A DNA stretch of 36,178 nt from an uncultured Planctomycetales bacterium (GTDB lineage Bacteria; Planctomycetota; Planctomycetia; Isosphaerales; Isosphaeraceae), in assembly GCA_903926465.1 (NCBI GenBank), contig CAIYJE010000149.1, positions 1-36,178 on the forward strand. The letters run 5' to 3'. The position numbers and the translations under genes were made by a program. Shown here in pieces: positions 9,983-17,255 of this stretch (position 1 is its first letter; every line of letters begins with the position of its first letter). Below the pieces are notes generated by a model. It was given only the letters and a program-made list of their open reading frames with translations, did not search any database and had not been told where the DNA came from.

Positions 9983-10861
9983 TTACTCAGACTGCTTTTC
10001 CAAGACTGGGGGCTGTCCAGCCGCCTCTGCCTGGGGTGCCAGGCTCAGTACCCCGCACGATCGGATCAGAAAGACCAGCAGGAACAGGGTGAACACGGCC
10101 ACGCTAATCATGGGCCAGGTGTAAGCACGTCGTAGCGTGATGCCGGCGTCAGATAGGTCTGGCTGAGTGACCGGGACGGAGCCCAGCGGTATGGGCTGGG
10201 TCGGTTTCTCTCGCGCCTGGATGACCTCATCGTGAGGCGGTTCAAACTGCGTGCTGGGGCCGCTGAGCAATTTCATGAGTTCGGGCGGAAGGGCCTCGCG
10301 GAGCGGAGCGGCCTGCGTCTGAAGAAACTCGATGGTTTGCTGAGGTGTGAAGGCTCGTGCCCGCATCTGCTGGCCCACAAACCCCACCACCGCCGGTGTC
10401 AACAGGTCAAGGAGCGGGCCGAGGGCTGAGCGGCCGACCTCGGTTGCATGCCCTAGCGCATTCAGAATTCCGCCGTATCGGTTGCCGAAGATTTCCTGGG
10501 GACCCACAGAGGCAAGCCCTGACTTAGGCTGAGCCTGGTGTTCCAGATTCAAATTAGACGGCGTGGCTCCAGACTCGGTTCGCTTCAGGAATTGAGCGAG
10601 TGCCTGCTGGCCACTGGCCGTCGATGCCAGTTGCACCAGTCCCGCGTAAATGGTTGTGGATGCGGCGCCAAGAACATCAGGCAGATGGGCCGGCACGGTT
10701 CCCATCTCCGCAGCCAGAATTCGTTCCGCCGAGGGAGTGACCGAGTCGCGAAACTCGGTGCGTACGGCCTCAAGCAGACTTGGGGGCGCCACGGTTGCTG
10801 TTGTTGAGCCAGACGCAACAAAGTCACGCGGTATCTCTGAGGGTTGCGAGTCGTTTCGCAT
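9983..10861 (-). CDS. DUF937-like membrane-anchored protein
   Basis: A 292-residue protein from ATG 10861, with GGAG ten bases upstream. The first 180 residues are Ala/Leu/Gly-rich helices with an arrangement like DUF937 proteins (AASTTIYAGLVQLAST, GRSALGPLLDLLTPAVVGFVGQQM, LPPELMKLLSG). A linker rich in Pro and charged residues leads to one membrane helix near residue 245 (WPMISVAVFTLFLLVFLI) and a short tail. Its architecture parallels the helical half of the protein encoded at 11032-12342, including the LPPELMKLL/LPAELTKSL segment, so the two are probably paralogues. It lacks the fasciclin domain. The function of DUF937 is unknown. Confidence 0.7.
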   Translation of the reverse strand: MRNDSQPSEIPRDFVASGSTTATVAPPSLLEAVRTEFRDSVTPSAERILAAEMGTVPAHLPDVLGAASTTIYAGLVQLASTASGQQALAQFLKRTESGATPSNLNLEHQAQPKSGLASVGPQEIFGNRYGGILNALGHATEVGRSALGPLLDLLTPAVVGFVGQQMRARAFTPQQTIEFLQTQAAPLREALPPELMKLLSGPSTQFEPPHDEVIQAREKPTQPIPLGSVPVTQPDLSDAGITLRRAYTWPMISVAVFTLFLLVFLIRSCGVLSLAPQAEAAGQPPVLEKQSE

Positions 10862-11031: not shown

Positions 11032-12342
11032 TCATTTGGCGGGCGGAAGCAGCACGGTGTCAATGACGTGAATCAGGCCGTTCTTGCTACGCACGTCGGC
11101 CTTGGTCACGGTGGCACCACCGATTGTCACTTTGCCATCCTTGACGGCAATGGGGGCAAAGGCCCCGCTGAGAGTTTTGACCTCTTTGCCGTCCAGGCCC
11201 ACGGCCTGAGCCGCCGGAACCGCCCCTTCAATAACGTGGTACTTCAGAATTTCGACCAGCTTGTCCTTGTTTTCCGGCTTGATCAATTCGGCAAGCTGAT
11301 CCGCGGGAATCTTGGCGAACGCCTCATCGGTCGGGGCGAACACCGTGAATGGTCCAGCGCCCTTGAGGGCATCAACCAGTCCGGCCTTGGTGAGCAGGTC
11401 AGCGAGGGTTTTGAAGGAGCCGGCCTTGAGCGCGGTATCCACAATGTCCACTTCTTCGACGATCTCTGTGGCGGGAGTTTCCGGCAGCGGCACCACCGCC
11501 TCGCGGGGCTTGTTGACCTTGGTCACCGCCGCGGGCTCGGCCACGGCGTTATCGGTTTTCACAACTTCGGGTGTGGCCGTCATACCCCGGTACAGCAGCA
11601 AGCCAAGCAGTCCCAGGGCCAGCAGGCCCAGTAGCGGAATCAGCCAACTGGGGAAGCCAGACGAGGCATTGGCGGCGGTTTTCATGGTGTGTCCGGCAGC
11701 CTGGCCGGTATTCCGGACGGCGTCGGCACCCTGCTGAGCCACCCGGTGCGAGGCGTTGGCCGCTGCGCCCACTGCCTGGCTACCGAGGTCGGCCAGGCTG
11801 TTGATCCCCAGAGATTTCGTGAGTTCGGCTGGTAGTGCACCCTTCAGGAAACCAGTCTGGCTGGTGAGCAGATCGGTAAGGCCCTGCGCACCCAGCCCTT
11901 TGGAAAGCACCTGCTTGGCAATGAGGTTCATGAGCAAGGGCGCGATCATCCCCAAGAGCGGGGTAATCACCGTCTTGCCCAGACCAAGCACGCCACTAAG
12001 TGCACCCAGCACGGCACCCAAGTTGGGGCCCAGAATCTGGCTCGCAAGATCTCCCCCTTTACGCTCGAATTCCCCACGCTTCTGAGGCGAACCGAGGATC
12101 TCGGGCAACTGGCTCAAAATGTCTGGGCTGCCGGCCGGTGCCTGGTTCCGGATCAAACCCAGAATCTGGTCCGCGCCACCCGGCAAGTTGGCTTTTTGGG
12201 TGAGTGCTGCCAGCAGCGTGGCTGCCGTTGTGCCAATGGCGCTGGTGGCTTTTCCAGAATCGAGCCCGAGTTGCTGGGAAACCTGGCCCAGTGCCGCACC
12301 CGTGAGTTGAGACTTGAGAGCGTCAATCAGATTCTCGGCCAT
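11032..12342 (-). CDS. DUF937-like domain, membrane helix and fasciclin domain fusion
   Basis: A 436-residue fusion. Start chosen at ATG 12342 (MAENLIDALKSQL), where DUF937-like homology begins; the frame extends to 12555 without recognisable sequence. Residues 1-180 are a DUF937-type helical domain (SQQLGLDSGKATSAIG, then Gly/Leu-rich helices). Residues 180-232 are an Ala-rich linker, 233-251 a membrane helix (WLIPLLGLLALGLLGLLLY), 252-297 a Pro/Val-rich spacer, and 298-434 a fasciclin domain with GPFTVFAPTDEAFAKIP, LKYHVIEGA and NGLIHVIDTVLLP. Fasciclin domains mediate adhesion, so that part is expected outside the cytoplasmic membrane while the DUF937 part stays inside. The gene has its own terminator and neighbours a paralogue without fasciclin. 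Confidence 0.85.
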   Translation of the reverse strand: MAENLIDALKSQLTGAALGQVSQQLGLDSGKATSAIGTTAATLLAALTQKANLPGGADQILGLIRNQAPAGSPDILSQLPEILGSPQKRGEFERKGGDLASQILGPNLGAVLGALSGVLGLGKTVITPLLGMIAPLLMNLIAKQVLSKGLGAQGLTDLLTSQTGFLKGALPAELTKSLGINSLADLGSQAVGAAANASHRVAQQGADAVRNTGQAAGHTMKTAANASSGFPSWLIPLLGLLALGLLGLLLYRGMTATPEVVKTDNAVAEPAAVTKVNKPREAVVPLPETPATEIVEEVDIVDTALKAGSFKTLADLLTKAGLVDALKGAGPFTVFAPTDEAFAKIPADQLAELIKPENKDKLVEILKYHVIEGAVPAAQAVGLDGKEVKTLSGAFAPIAVKDGKVTIGGATVTKADVRSKNGLIHVIDTVLLPPAK

Positions 12343-12937
12343 AGTGAAATTACCCTGATCACGAGCTTGGTTTCCCATCCATTTGGAAACCGAAGCATCA
12401 TGGATTGTCTGAACACATCCATCCCTGGGATGTTCGGAACGGATTCGTACTTGCGTCGACCTTGAGGGGGAAGTGAGACAGTGAGTTATTTTTACCCCGT
12501 ACGTCTTGTGAATCCAGTGGTCAGGGAGAAGTTTACGATTTCCAGACCCAACCAATTCACCGACAACAGGGCGTGGCTCTGGGTTTGAGGAGTGACCAAG
12601 ATTCGGGGATCCATCGAGTTTTGGCGAGGGCCCAAGGTCGGAATTTTCCAGGAAAAAGTGCGAGAAGCTAAGTCAAAGTCCAGGTCCGCAGAAACGAAAG
12701 AATTTCGTCGACGCTCAGGAAACGGAATGCGAAAAGTCCGGCCTGGTCAGTCTGAAATTGGGATCGGGACAAATGGCGGACGGACAACGCCGATCAGCCG
12801 TGAGCGTCAGAAGATCTGGGAAGCGTCGGGCCATGTTCTTGACATCTCCCAGACGTATCCTCTAGATTGATCGGACTGTCAACGGGGCCGTTTATGCGCG
12901 CCTGGCCCGCACCCCGAATGCCTTCTTCCCCATTTCA
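12343..12937. other. Divergent intergenic region between the DUF937-fasciclin gene and tex
   Basis: About 600 bases between divergent genes, which must contain both promoters. A + frame at 12592-12870 is rich in Arg, Lys and Ser, has no ribosome-binding site and resembles nothing I know, so I do not call it. No convincing -35/-10 pair, riboswitch or repeat was found by eye. Confidence 0.35.
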
Positions 12938-15900
12938 ATGGGATTGAAGGCCTGTAATCCCTTGATCCCCTGCCCGATGGATCACCCCATGGAAACCCCG
13001 ATTCCGGTCGATCTGGGCCGGATCGCACAGGACCTTCAGATCCGACGCATCCAGGTCGAGACTGTCGTCCAGTTGCTTGATGAAGGCAATACTGTTCCGC
13101 ACATCGCTCGCTTCGCCAGAGAACGTACTGGTGGGCTTGGAGAGGCGCTTGTTCGTGAAATTCAGAGCCGCATGGTGCGAGCTCGTGAGTTGACCGAACG
13201 CAAACGCACGATCCTCCAGGCGATTGAGGCGCAGGGCCGGCTCACCGAAGAGCTTGCCACGGCCATACGAAATGCGGACACGCCCAAGCGGCTGGATGAC
13301 CTGTATCTCCCGTATAAGTCTAAGAAGAAGAGCAAAGGCGCCGAGGCTCGCGAACAGGGCCTGGAACCTCTGGCTTTAAGAATCTGGAATCGGGACGAGA
13401 CCCTTGCGGATCTGGATGCTGCGGCAACCGAATTTGTTAACCCTGAGAAGGGGCTCGAGTCACTCGAGACCGTTCGGACCGGGGTTGGGAATATTCTTGC
13501 CGAGTCGATTCACGAACTGGCCCACGTGCGGGACACCATTCGCCGAGCAGTTTGGAGGCTTGGCAAGGTCGTGACCTCCAAGGCTGAGAATCTGGCGGAA
13601 GGCAAGGGACAGGATTATCGGGATTATTTCTCGTATTCCGAGCCGGTTGGAAATATTCCTCCTCACCGGGTTTTGGCGATCAACCGGGGTGAGAAGGAAG
13701 GAACACTCAAGGTCAAGCTTGAGGTCCCCCAAGGGGATCTGGAACGGTTGATGCTTGAGCTTTTGCCGCTGGAAGATCATCCCCATCGTGATTTTTTCAG
13801 CTCGGCCACGCTCGACTCGCTCAATCGCCTGCTGGTGCCGGCGCTTGAACGCGAGATCAAGCGTGATCTGACCGAGGCGGCCGAGCGTCATGCGGTTGAA
13901 GTGTTCGCCAGGAATCTTCGCAGCCTTCTGCTTCAGCCCCCGCTTGAGCACAAGGTGGTACTGGCCATTGATCCAGGCCGCAAAGGTTGCAAGCTCGCCG
14001 TGCTAGATTCCAGTGGTGCGCTTCTGGAACACGCTCAGATTCAGCCATTCTCGCCTCAAAACCGTAGGTTTGAGGCCAAGCAGACTATCAAAGACCTTGT
14101 CGGTAAGCACCACGTTGAAGTGGTGGCAATTGGCAACGGAACAGCCTGTCGAGAGATGGAGGAGCTGGTGGCCGAAGTCATTGCCGAGGCAACGCACTTC
14201 GTAAACAACCCCGGCGTGCCCTTCCCGGTTTCTCGCAAAAGCCAGAAGGAAGCAAGCGGTGATGCATCAGGACAGGCCTCCAAGGGTTCTGCTCCCGTGG
14301 TCTCCGAATCTGAACCGGTTCTTTCGAACGATCCTGATACCGGAACTTCCGAAGTGACTCACTCCCACGCTGAGACTCATGTTGAGCATGACGTCCCTGC
14401 CAGTGACGTCAGCACGCACGAACACGCAGAGGTAGATGCCTCAGTGGCGAGTGACACTCCTCCGCCAATTTCAGGCGGCTCTGGTGAACCAGGTGAAGGC
14501 CACCACGGATCTTCTGACTCCAGTGACTCCGAAAAGGTTGAAGATTCGCTGGCGACTCCTCTGGGTGATGCCGTTGGGGAACTGCCTGTTTCTGTACCCA
14601 ATGCCGATATTGTGACCGTGACCGAGGTCATTTCCCACCACGCGGCCCATGCTGTCACGGAAGTGATTTCGTTCGCGGCTGTAGCCTCGAATCTGGATCT
14701 CTCTGAACCTCATGAGGTTCATGGATCCCAGACCGAGGTGGCTGTGAGCTCGGATGGCGGTTCTGCGGAACAGGCCACTGCGGGTGTGGCTCCCTCGTTT
14801 GCCACCCCACTGACTCAGCCACCCAAGGGCAGTGGCAAGCCTGGCAAGCCAGAAAAAGAAAAAGAAAAAGAGAAAGACAAAGAGAAGGAAAAAGATCGGG
14901 AGCCCCGGCCCCCCAAGGTCAAGACTCCTCCTCAGCCACCGGCACCCCACGCTGCCGATGCCCTGATCTCTCAGCTTTCCTACATCATCGTGAACGAAGC
15001 TGGCGCGAATGTTTACTCGTCCAGTACTCTTGGACGTGAAGAACTTCCTGAGGTTGAGGCTGAACTTCGTGGCACGATTTCGATCGGACGTCGATTGCTG
15101 GACCCGCTCACCGAACTGGTGAAAGTTGATCCCCAGAACGTGGGTGTTGGCCAGTACCAGCACGATGTGCATCCCAACCAGCTCAAGGAAAGCCTGAAGC
15201 AGGTCATTGAGAGCTGTGTGAACTTCGTCGGCGTTGATCTCAACACCGCCAATGCCACATTGCTGTCTCACGTCTCAGGCCTGAACGATCTTCTGGCCCG
15301 GCGAATCGTTGAATTTCGCAAGGAGAAGGGTCCGTTCCGGCTCCGTGAACAACTCAAGGAAGTGGAAGGGGTTGCTGAGAATATCTACCGTCAGGCTGCA
15401 GGTTTCCTCAGGGTTCATGGCGGCGAAAACCCGCTCGATCGTACCTGGATCCACCCTGAGAGTTATCCGATCGCTCACAAACTTTTGGCGGCTATTGGGG
15501 TTGGCCCTGAAGCGTTGGCCACCTCAGAGAGCGTAGATGAGCTTCGCGGCAAACTGAACCAGCTAGACGTTCCAGAGCTTGCCAAGTCGCTCGAACTGAC
15601 AGAGCCTGCGCTGCACGAGATGTTGACAGCATTTGCTCAGGCTGGTCGTGACCCTCGTCAGGACCTACCCAAGCCTATCTTCAAGCGTGGTCTTCTCAAG
15701 CTCGAAGATCTTCAGCCTGGTGTTGAGCTGAAGGGGACCGTTCTCAACGTTGTCGACTTTGGCGCATTTGTCGACATCGGTTTGAAGGATTCTGGCCTGG
15801 TCCATATCAGCCAACTTGCAAATCGTTATGTCAAGAGCCCTCACGATATTGTCAGTGTTGGCGATGTTGTAAGCGTGTGGGTGATGACGGTTGATAAAGA

Positions 15901-16591
15901 GCGGAAACGTGTCTCTTTGACGATGATTGAGCCTGGAACTGAACGGTCTCGAACTCCAGAACGTCCCGAGCGACCAACCGCTCGTGGTCCCCGTGGTCGT
16001 TCACAGGGTGGCCCTCCACCCGCAGGTGATGCACCGGCACGTGAGCGGCCAGCCGTTCGTGGTCCCAGACCCGAAGGCCCCGCAGCTAGTCGCCAGGGTG
16101 GTCCTCGTCGTGAGGGGGGTGATGCTCGGTCTTCCGAACAAGCATCATCCACGCCGCGACCAAGCAACCGCGTTCCTGGGCCTCCACAGCGAGCTCAGCA
16201 AGGCGGCAGGCCTGGCATGGGTGGTGGTGGTGGCCGTGGCGGTCCCGGTCGAGGCGGGTTTGGTGGTGGCCGTGGACCTGGGGGTGGTAAGCCTGGTGGA
16301 GCACGTGATGCTGCCGCCGATCGCGCTGCCGACACAACCCCTGTCACGCCTCGTAAGCCGAAGCCGGCCCCTGGCCCTTCTCCGCTGACCAAAGACGTGA
16401 TTGCCGGTGCCGCTCCTCTTCGTTCGTTCGGTCAGCTCAAGCAGTTGTTCGAATTGCGAACCACAGACGAGCCTGCTCCCGAATCTGGCGGGGTGGCATC
16501 GCCGGTTCAGGATTCAGCTTCACCTGTCCAGCCAACGGCTCCTGTTGAGGATGCACGGCCGGCCGGTGGTGATGATTCCACTTCGTCCTGA
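12938..16591 (+). CDS. tex: Tex-family RNA-binding protein with large internal insertion and RG-rich tail
   Basis: Transcription accessory protein Tex, a cytoplasmic nucleic-acid-binding protein related to Spt6. Homology begins at METPIPVDLGRIAQDLQ, so ATG 12989 or 12977 may be the real start; no Shine-Dalgarno decides it and I give the longest frame. Numbered from 12938: Tex N-terminal helices to about 340; YqgF/RNase H-like domain (VVLAIDPGRKGCKLAVLD) at about 343-420; an insertion at about 423-672; return to Tex at YIIVNEAGANVYSSS; helix-hairpin-helix (GLNDLLARRIVEFRKEKGPF) near 780-800; S1 domain (LKGTVLNVVDFGAFVDIGLKDSGLVHIS) near 930-1000. A tail of about 215 residues has RGP, RPE and GGGRGG repeats. 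Tex is usually about 770 residues; the 1217 here are explained by the insertion and tail. Confidence 0.95.
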   Translation: MGLKACNPLIPCPMDHPMETPIPVDLGRIAQDLQIRRIQVETVVQLLDEGNTVPHIARFARERTGGLGEALVREIQSRMVRARELTERKRTILQAIEAQGRLTEELATAIRNADTPKRLDDLYLPYKSKKKSKGAEAREQGLEPLALRIWNRDETLADLDAAATEFVNPEKGLESLETVRTGVGNILAESIHELAHVRDTIRRAVWRLGKVVTSKAENLAEGKGQDYRDYFSYSEPVGNIPPHRVLAINRGEKEGTLKVKLEVPQGDLERLMLELLPLEDHPHRDFFSSATLDSLNRLLVPALEREIKRDLTEAAERHAVEVFARNLRSLLLQPPLEHKVVLAIDPGRKGCKLAVLDSSGALLEHAQIQPFSPQNRRFEAKQTIKDLVGKHHVEVVAIGNGTACREMEELVAEVIAEATHFVNNPGVPFPVSRKSQKEASGDASGQASKGSAPVVSESEPVLSNDPDTGTSEVTHSHAETHVEHDVPASDVSTHEHAEVDASVASDTPPPISGGSGEPGEGHHGSSDSSDSEKVEDSLATPLGDAVGELPVSVPNADIVTVTEVISHHAAHAVTEVISFAAVASNLDLSEPHEVHGSQTEVAVSSDGGSAEQATAGVAPSFATPLTQPPKGSGKPGKPEKEKEKEKDKEKEKDREPRPPKVKTPPQPPAPHAADALISQLSYIIVNEAGANVYSSSTLGREELPEVEAELRGTISIGRRLLDPLTELVKVDPQNVGVGQYQHDVHPNQLKESLKQVIESCVNFVGVDLNTANATLLSHVSGLNDLLARRIVEFRKEKGPFRLREQLKEVEGVAENIYRQAAGFLRVHGGENPLDRTWIHPESYPIAHKLLAAIGVGPEALATSESVDELRGKLNQLDVPELAKSLELTEPALHEMLTAFAQAGRDPRQDLPKPIFKRGLLKLEDLQPGVELKGTVLNVVDFGAFVDIGLKDSGLVHISQLANRYVKSPHDIVSVGDVVSVWVMTVDKERKRVSLTMIEPGTERSRTPERPERPTARGPRGRSQGGPPPAGDAPARERPAVRGPRPEGPAASRQGGPRREGGDARSSEQASSTPRPSNRVPGPPQRAQQGGRPGMGGGGGRGGPGRGGFGGGRGPGGGKPGGARDAAADRAADTTPVTPRKPKPAPGPSPLTKDVIAGAAPLRSFGQLKQLFELRTTDEPAPESGGVASPVQDSASPVQPTAPVEDARPAGGDDSTSS

Positions 16592-16634: not shown

Positions 16635-17255
16635 ATGCTCGATAAAGCTATTCGTGATGCGCTTATGCTCTGGGCCACGGTCGATCCAATCGGCACGTTG
16701 GCCCTTTTTGCTTCCCTGACCGCTGGCTATCAACCGGCGGAACGGAAACGGATTGCGACCCGGGCAACGGTAATTGCCGGGTCGATCTTGCTGATCTCCA
16801 TCGTGGTGGGTGAGATCATTCTGAGCGGGCTCGGAATTCGACTGATCTCGCTTCAGCTTGCTGGCGGAATCGTTCTGTTTCTGTTCGCGTTGCAGATGAT
16901 TTTCGGGATTGGAACGGGCCATGGCTCGGACCAACCGGAAGATGGCCATGACGTCTCGGTGTTTCCGCTTGCGATCCCATCGATGGCTAGCCCAGGGGCT
17001 ATCATGGCCGTGATTGTGTTAACAGACAATCACACCTATTCCATACCGCAACAGGCAATCACTGCGCTGGTGCTGTTAGCGGTGCTGGGGGTTACGTGGT
17101 TGCTGATGCTGGTGGCCGATCCGTTTCTCAGGATCATGGGCCGCACGGGAGCGGCTGTCTTGATCCGGGTCATGGGGATGATTTTGGCCGCACTCTCGGT
17201 TGAGGTGGTGATGGTGGCAATTGGTGCTCACCGCTGGCTTGAGCCTGGCCCCTGA
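16635..17255 (+). CDS. MarC-family integral membrane protein
   Basis: A 206-residue inner-membrane protein of the MarC (UPF0056) family, six predicted helices. Family hallmarks are the opening ALMLWATVDPIGTLALFASLTAG, the central LAGGIVLFLFALQMIFG, the SVFPLAIPSMASPGAI motif and the ending RVMGMILAALSVEVV. The ATG at 16635 lies 43 bases after the tex stop on the same strand, so it may be co-transcribed with tex. MarC was once thought to confer antibiotic resistance, which was later disproved; the transported substrate is unknown. Confidence 0.92.
   Translation: MLDKAIRDALMLWATVDPIGTLALFASLTAGYQPAERKRIATRATVIAGSILLISIVVGEIILSGLGIRLISLQLAGGIVLFLFALQMIFGIGTGHGSDQPEDGHDVSVFPLAIPSMASPGAIMAVIVLTDNHTYSIPQQAITALVLLAVLGVTWLLMLVADPFLRIMGRTGAAVLIRVMGMILAALSVEVVMVAIGAHRWLEPGP

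Follow-up and report, generated by a model that had tools for sequence, protein, structure and literature searches.

What does a long disordered stretch do inside a core domain of the transcription factor Tex? Tex is widespread in bacteria, binds RNA and is related to Spt6. To our knowledge, little is established about the partners of Tex or about what its YqgF domain does. The stretch of DNA analysed here (36,178 nucleotides from an uncultured planctomycete of the Isosphaeraceae, referred to as the window) carries a tex gene whose YqgF domain is interrupted by approximately 262 residues. We found no published description of this insert in the open-access literature.

A preliminary description of this DNA had noted the interruption and proposed that it could recruit partners, bind metal or promote condensation with RNA. 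That interpretation is partly supported by the analysis presented here. The main feature of the insert is a short conserved motif, which was overlooked at the time. We describe the insert, its motif and its distribution, and we weigh the explanations that could account for them.

The tex gene and its divided YqgF domain

The gene is a single frame without interruption (Table 1), and the insert is real, intact and in frame. The protein has the domain set of Tex in the usual order, namely Tex_N, Tex_central_region, Tex_YqgF, HHH_3, HHH_9 and S1, each above its Pfam cut-off, together with an RG-rich tail. It aligns with the Tex of Pseudomonas aeruginosa (PDB 3bzc) at an E value of 1.8e-157 and is the only Tex in its own genome. 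The Pseudomonas protein (PDB 3bzc, 3bzk and 2oce) has the same domain order and matches in sequence over all core domains, and the acidic residues of beta1 and beta5 are retained in the window Tex. Pseudomonas Tex, however, has approximately 5 residues where the window Tex has approximately 262, and it lacks the motif-bearing insert.

Table 1. Features of the tex gene and its insert in the window
Feature	Coordinates	Strand	Evidence
tex gene, 1217 aa	12938..16591	+	ORF, Pfam domains, 3bzc alignment
YqgF first part (beta1 to alpha2), ending at helix REMEELVAEVIA	13952..14185	+	PF16921 profile 1-83; 3bzc alignment to residue 407
Insert, residues 417-678, disordered by composition	14186..14971	+	3bzc alignment, composition
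N edge EATHF; consensus EGT-x-F	14186..14200	+	E and F invariant, 44/44 inserts
Conserved short motif PPPISGGSGE, residues 508-517	14459..14488	+	44/44 inserts
Basic last 60 residues, with Glu-Lys run and C edge PP-x-PH-x-AD-x-x-LA	14792..14971	+	charge, conservation, repeat
YqgF second part, strand 5 with relocated acidic residue (IIVNEAG, E687)	14972..15097	+	PF16921 profile 83-125; conservation
C-terminal tail motif PLRSFGQLKQLF, outside insert	16415..16450	+	by eye, printed tails

The Tex_YqgF family (PF16921) is matched in two stretches, one covering profile positions 1-83 (residues 339-420) and the other positions 83-125 (DNA 14969-15097). The continuous YqgF that is usual, if not strictly defining, for Tex is thus split at about profile position 83. 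Because both halves are present, the protein is counted as a variant Tex. The alignment with 3bzc breaks at query residue 416 (target 407) and resumes at 679 (target 413), which puts the insert between helix 2 and strand 5 of this RNase H-like domain. In Tex an acidic residue of the domain has been relocated to strand 5 (PMC3985635); within the order this residue (E687 in the window Tex) is conserved in every one of the 43 sequences that extend to it.

The boundaries first given for the insert, 14203-14955, are nearly exact, and the flanking anchors ACREMEELVAEVIAEA and YIIVNEAGANVYSSS are correct. It was also said to nearly double the domain; the domain is indeed enlarged, but the size was understated, as the insert is about twice the 126-position domain. 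Among the main ORFs of the window, disordered-type stretches longer than 62 residues occur in Tex only.

The tail of the protein has features of its own. An RG/RGG-rich low-complexity stretch lies at 16180-16310; such stretches are typical of RNA-binding tails. The net charge of the tail is positive across the order wherever the tail is complete. Versions of the tail motif (PLRTFGELKALF, PLQGFDQLKALW and PLRSFGDLAQFL) close the Tex tails of most families in the class, whether or not an insert is present, and the motif looks like a second, older docking helix. Immediately downstream of tex and on the same strand is a gene for a MarC-family membrane protein (16635-17255, +). On the minus strand there is an adjacent pair of DUF937 proteins (9983-10861 and 11032-12555), the second of which is fused to a fasciclin domain.

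Composition, charge and edges of the insert

The order Isosphaerales comprises one family here; 45 genomes fall in both, and 44 of them have Tex. The inserts of these 44 Tex proteins are approximately 170-420 residues long, high in Pro, Ala, Glu and Ser and low in aromatic and aliphatic residues. By the charge-hydropathy boundary all except one fall on the disordered side, and only 2 of 11,909 insert residues are Cys. The disorder that had been read from the window sequence is therefore backed by composition. No Pfam domain was found in the two inserts searched. An AlphaFold2 model of residues 333-822, made from the single sequence with no alignment, reached a mean pLDDT of 44 and a pTM of 0.25.

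The sequence and length of the spacer drift freely; the edges and the charge layout are conserved. At the C edge the H and D are invariant (His in 43/43). The body of the insert is acidic, with a net charge of -24 to -60 in all 43 complete inserts, and the last 60 residues are positive in 42 of the 43 (shuffled sequences: mean 0.18, maximum 2).

The elements that stood out in the window sequence on its own (SHAETHVEHD, the Ser/Asp-rich and Val/Thr-rich parts and the Glu-Lys run) are all present. The Glu-Lys repeats are private to the window species. They correspond to a DNA tandem repeat, AGAAAA x 7.5 at 14851-14895, giving 17 consecutive charged residues compared with 6 or fewer in the 43 relatives; only the net positive charge of the last 60 residues is conserved. 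The His-rich SHAETHVEHD is not shared either. The proposal of metal binding finds no support. His makes up 0.4-6% of the inserts (median 2.2%), Cys is almost absent and no conserved His/Cys ligands of the kind expected in a metal-binding His-rich region were found. The invariant His of the C edge does not make a metal site, since one residue makes none.

A ten-residue motif in every insert

Within the drifting spacer lies one short motif. Its consensus across the order is E-x-[LP]-P-P-I-[ST]-G-G-[AS]-P-[DE], in which P, G and G are invariant and the I/V/L and A/S positions hold in 44 of 44 inserts; as a peptide, the Tex motif sequence is EELPPISGGAPDE. The core P[ILV]-x-GG-[AS] is found in all 44 inserts, compared with a mean of 0.22 and a maximum of 3 of 44 in 2000 shuffles. 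Three inserts have two copies. The distance of the motif from the N edge ranges from 48 to 162 residues. Third codon positions of the motif vary, and the codons for the invariant Pro and Gly are constant at their first two positions, which indicates that selection acts on the protein. The motif has the properties of a short linear motif: it is short, conserved far above its surroundings, embedded in disorder and freely spaced.

Outside the order the motif was found in none of 44 Tex proteins examined, and the loosest form of the pattern gave one unrelated match among them, in the core of L161. DNA pattern scans of the organism's own genome, in which not every codon choice was covered, recovered Tex and two other places; judged by the listed ORFs, neither of the two is in a coding frame, as they run antisense to these ORFs or fall outside them. 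The scanned genomes of other family members gave about as many matches as a reversed control pattern. Given the own-genome scan and the control-level counts in relatives, the motif does not serve as a signal common across the proteome. No match to it was found in the PDB.

Distribution and origin of YqgF inserts

An alignment of relatives had been called for, and it shows that the insertion site is conserved: each of the 44 Tex genes found in the order has its YqgF interrupted at about profile position 80-87, and none of them has lost the insert. The 45th genome, which is 89% complete, gave no Tex match. A search for relatives in a collection of genome contigs matched S1 domains only.

The wider comparison covered 297 genomes of the class. 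A continuous YqgF is found in many families (f2, f3, f4 and others), and two YqgF matches are frequent in f83, f84, f86 and f97. Several f3 genomes also gave two YqgF matches in these class-wide counts. Two sites are involved. Site A, between alpha2 and beta5 as in the window Tex, is the site in most f83 and f97 genomes, and site B, between beta3 and alpha1, is used in f84, f86 and three f83 genomes. None of the Tex proteins in the sample examined has inserts at both. Elsewhere in the class, YqgF is free of inserts, carries one at the same site that looks unrelated, or carries one in the beta3-alpha1 loop.

Tex of the families f83, f84 and f86 (perhaps Gemmatales, at a guess) also has its YqgF domain extended by disordered inserts, in some cases at the same site. 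The shared-site inserts are shorter, have different edges and lack the P-P-I-x-G-G motif. The disordered beta3-alpha1 inserts are roughly 70-340 residues long (L137, L138, L139, L140, L146, L150, L156, L158 and L161) and often begin Lys/Arg-rich. Three f83 genomes (G456, G366 and G423) have a second Tex of normal length (L132, L133 and L134, respectively) beside the longer copy, and these normal-length copies fall outside the class's own Tex clade.

A tree was built from 83 Tex cores with the insert columns excluded, by a quick method and with long branches. In it the family of the window forms one clade (support 100) and adjoins the f83/f84/f86 group, the joint group having a support of 88. 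Insert state changes at least 8 times on this tree, and a single gain at the base of Isosphaerales would fit. A divergent Tex from elsewhere in the phylum (L088, genome G085) has approximately 43 residues at the same site, an insert that is apparently independent by its placement on the tree.

Discussion

The insert, its site, its conservation across the order, the motif and the charge layout are observed. With modest confidence we lean towards a disordered arm that would present the docking motif to a protein partner next to the route that RNA takes between YqgF and S1. A lineage-specific arm would loop out of YqgF after helix 2 and ahead of strand 5, its acidic spacer, which evolves fast, would hold one docking motif (E-x-L-P-P-I-S-G-G-A-P-D/E), and a conserved basic, proline-rich C edge would lead back to strand 5 and the relocated acidic residue. 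The motif would tether a partner from the transcription or RNA machinery to Tex. The reading as a docking motif is suggested by the free spacing, the surrounding disorder, the occasional doubling and the few residues that are absolutely conserved. Binding in trans, the identity of the partner and any effect on RNA are inferred. Of the uses first proposed, partner recruitment is favoured because of the invariant short motif; metal binding is unsupported.

The acidic arm and its basic base may also adjust the access of RNA beside the YqgF-S1 side. The position of the insert is suggestive: it leads directly into strand 5 with the relocated acidic residue, and in the human elongation complex the exiting RNA takes a groove that separates the S1 domain of SPT6 from its YqgF/RuvC domain (PMC6832287). 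The argument draws on Spt6 and on net charge only.

Eukaryotic SPT6, whose core is homologous to Tex, offers a further parallel. The disordered elongation factors of the human complex act through short motifs; IWS1 holds the complex in this way, and an N-terminal segment of SPT6 (residues 207-230) binds IWS1 (PMC13175633). The proposed Tex arm can be likened to SPT6 and IWS1/Spn1 in working through motif-held partners. The arrangement differs in that the disordered arm of SPT6 is N-terminal and its bound segment is a helix, whereas the arm of the window Tex is inside YqgF. The tandem C-terminal SH2 domains of SPT6 were not found by Pfam in the window Tex, and the study PMC13289920 detected no IWS1 domain in prokaryotes. 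Metazoan SPT6 likewise has an insertion specific to its lineage within a core domain, S1, but that insertion is a predicted zinc finger (PMC13289920) and the window arm is disordered, in YqgF and almost without Cys. On this analogy we tentatively raise a fuller scenario, which we hold to be rather less than probable: Tex gained the arm once at the base of Isosphaerales, and P-P-I-x-G-G recruits a dedicated partner to the elongating polymerase or the nascent RNA, as eukaryotic elongation-factor arms do.

The motif could instead dock in cis. It would fold onto the body of Tex, and the acidic arm would act as a nucleic-acid mimic that shields an RNA/DNA-binding surface until displaced. The strongly acidic body in every species and the confinement of the motif to Tex are consistent with this. 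Order-specific residues of the core, however, amount to only 11 scattered positions, none in YqgF-C, HhH or S1, which outline no evident face for co-evolved docking, and the charge of the insert does not track that of the tail (Spearman 0.04). Since the single-sequence AlphaFold model is poor, docking on Tex itself keeps some weight, and we regard it as unlikely.

We consider it improbable that the insert is a functionless product of neutral expansion, in which an insertion-tolerant loop has grown by slippage and drift. Several observations agree with such growth. Because RNase H-like proteins elsewhere accept insertions at beta3-alpha1 and alpha2-beta5 (PMC3985635), both loops are permissive, and on this reading repeated insertion at two loops within the class would show no more than tolerance. 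The Glu-Lys run coincides with a DNA repeat, the spacer drifts in sequence and length, and insert state changes repeatedly on the tree. Neutral expansion is weakened by the conservation of the motif in every insert with synonymous codon change. The invariant edges, the conserved charge layout and the retention of the insert in every Tex found in the order also count against it.

Slightly less credible still is a processing site, at which a papain-like or double-glycine (C39-like) peptidase would cut the motif and open Tex inside YqgF. The motif resembles in its logic the sites of Gly-Gly-cutting cysteine peptidases, with an invariant I/V/L (P4), G-G (P2-P1) and A/S (P1') and a free residue between. 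In double-glycine leaders the C39 site has a hydrophobic residue at -4 and -7 and Gly at -2 and -1; the motif has I/V/L at -4 and GG in 44/44 and mostly L at -7. The motif is also compatible with a protease site, which is counted against docking. Such sites, however, lie in the N-terminal leader of a small exported peptide, and the motif is in the interior of a 1217-residue protein. Pro-Pro at P6-P5 and the usual Pro at P2', the two copies in some species and the failure to link any peptidase to the motif also argue against cleavage.

That the insert is an artefact (an assembly error, a frameshift pair or a misjoined contig), the case that the preliminary description had named as its refutation, is rejected as next to impossible, as nothing was found in its favour, the frame is single and open, and the same architecture recurs in 44 independent assemblies.

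Within one class, disordered insertion has been tried repeatedly at two loops of one fold. For the docking arm that we favour, an invariant motif in a drifting arm is a ready bait; the ten-residue peptide and a mutant of it could fish out the partner. The Tex of Isosphaerales would then show clearly how a core RNA-transaction protein of bacteria evolves by taking in disordered sequence.
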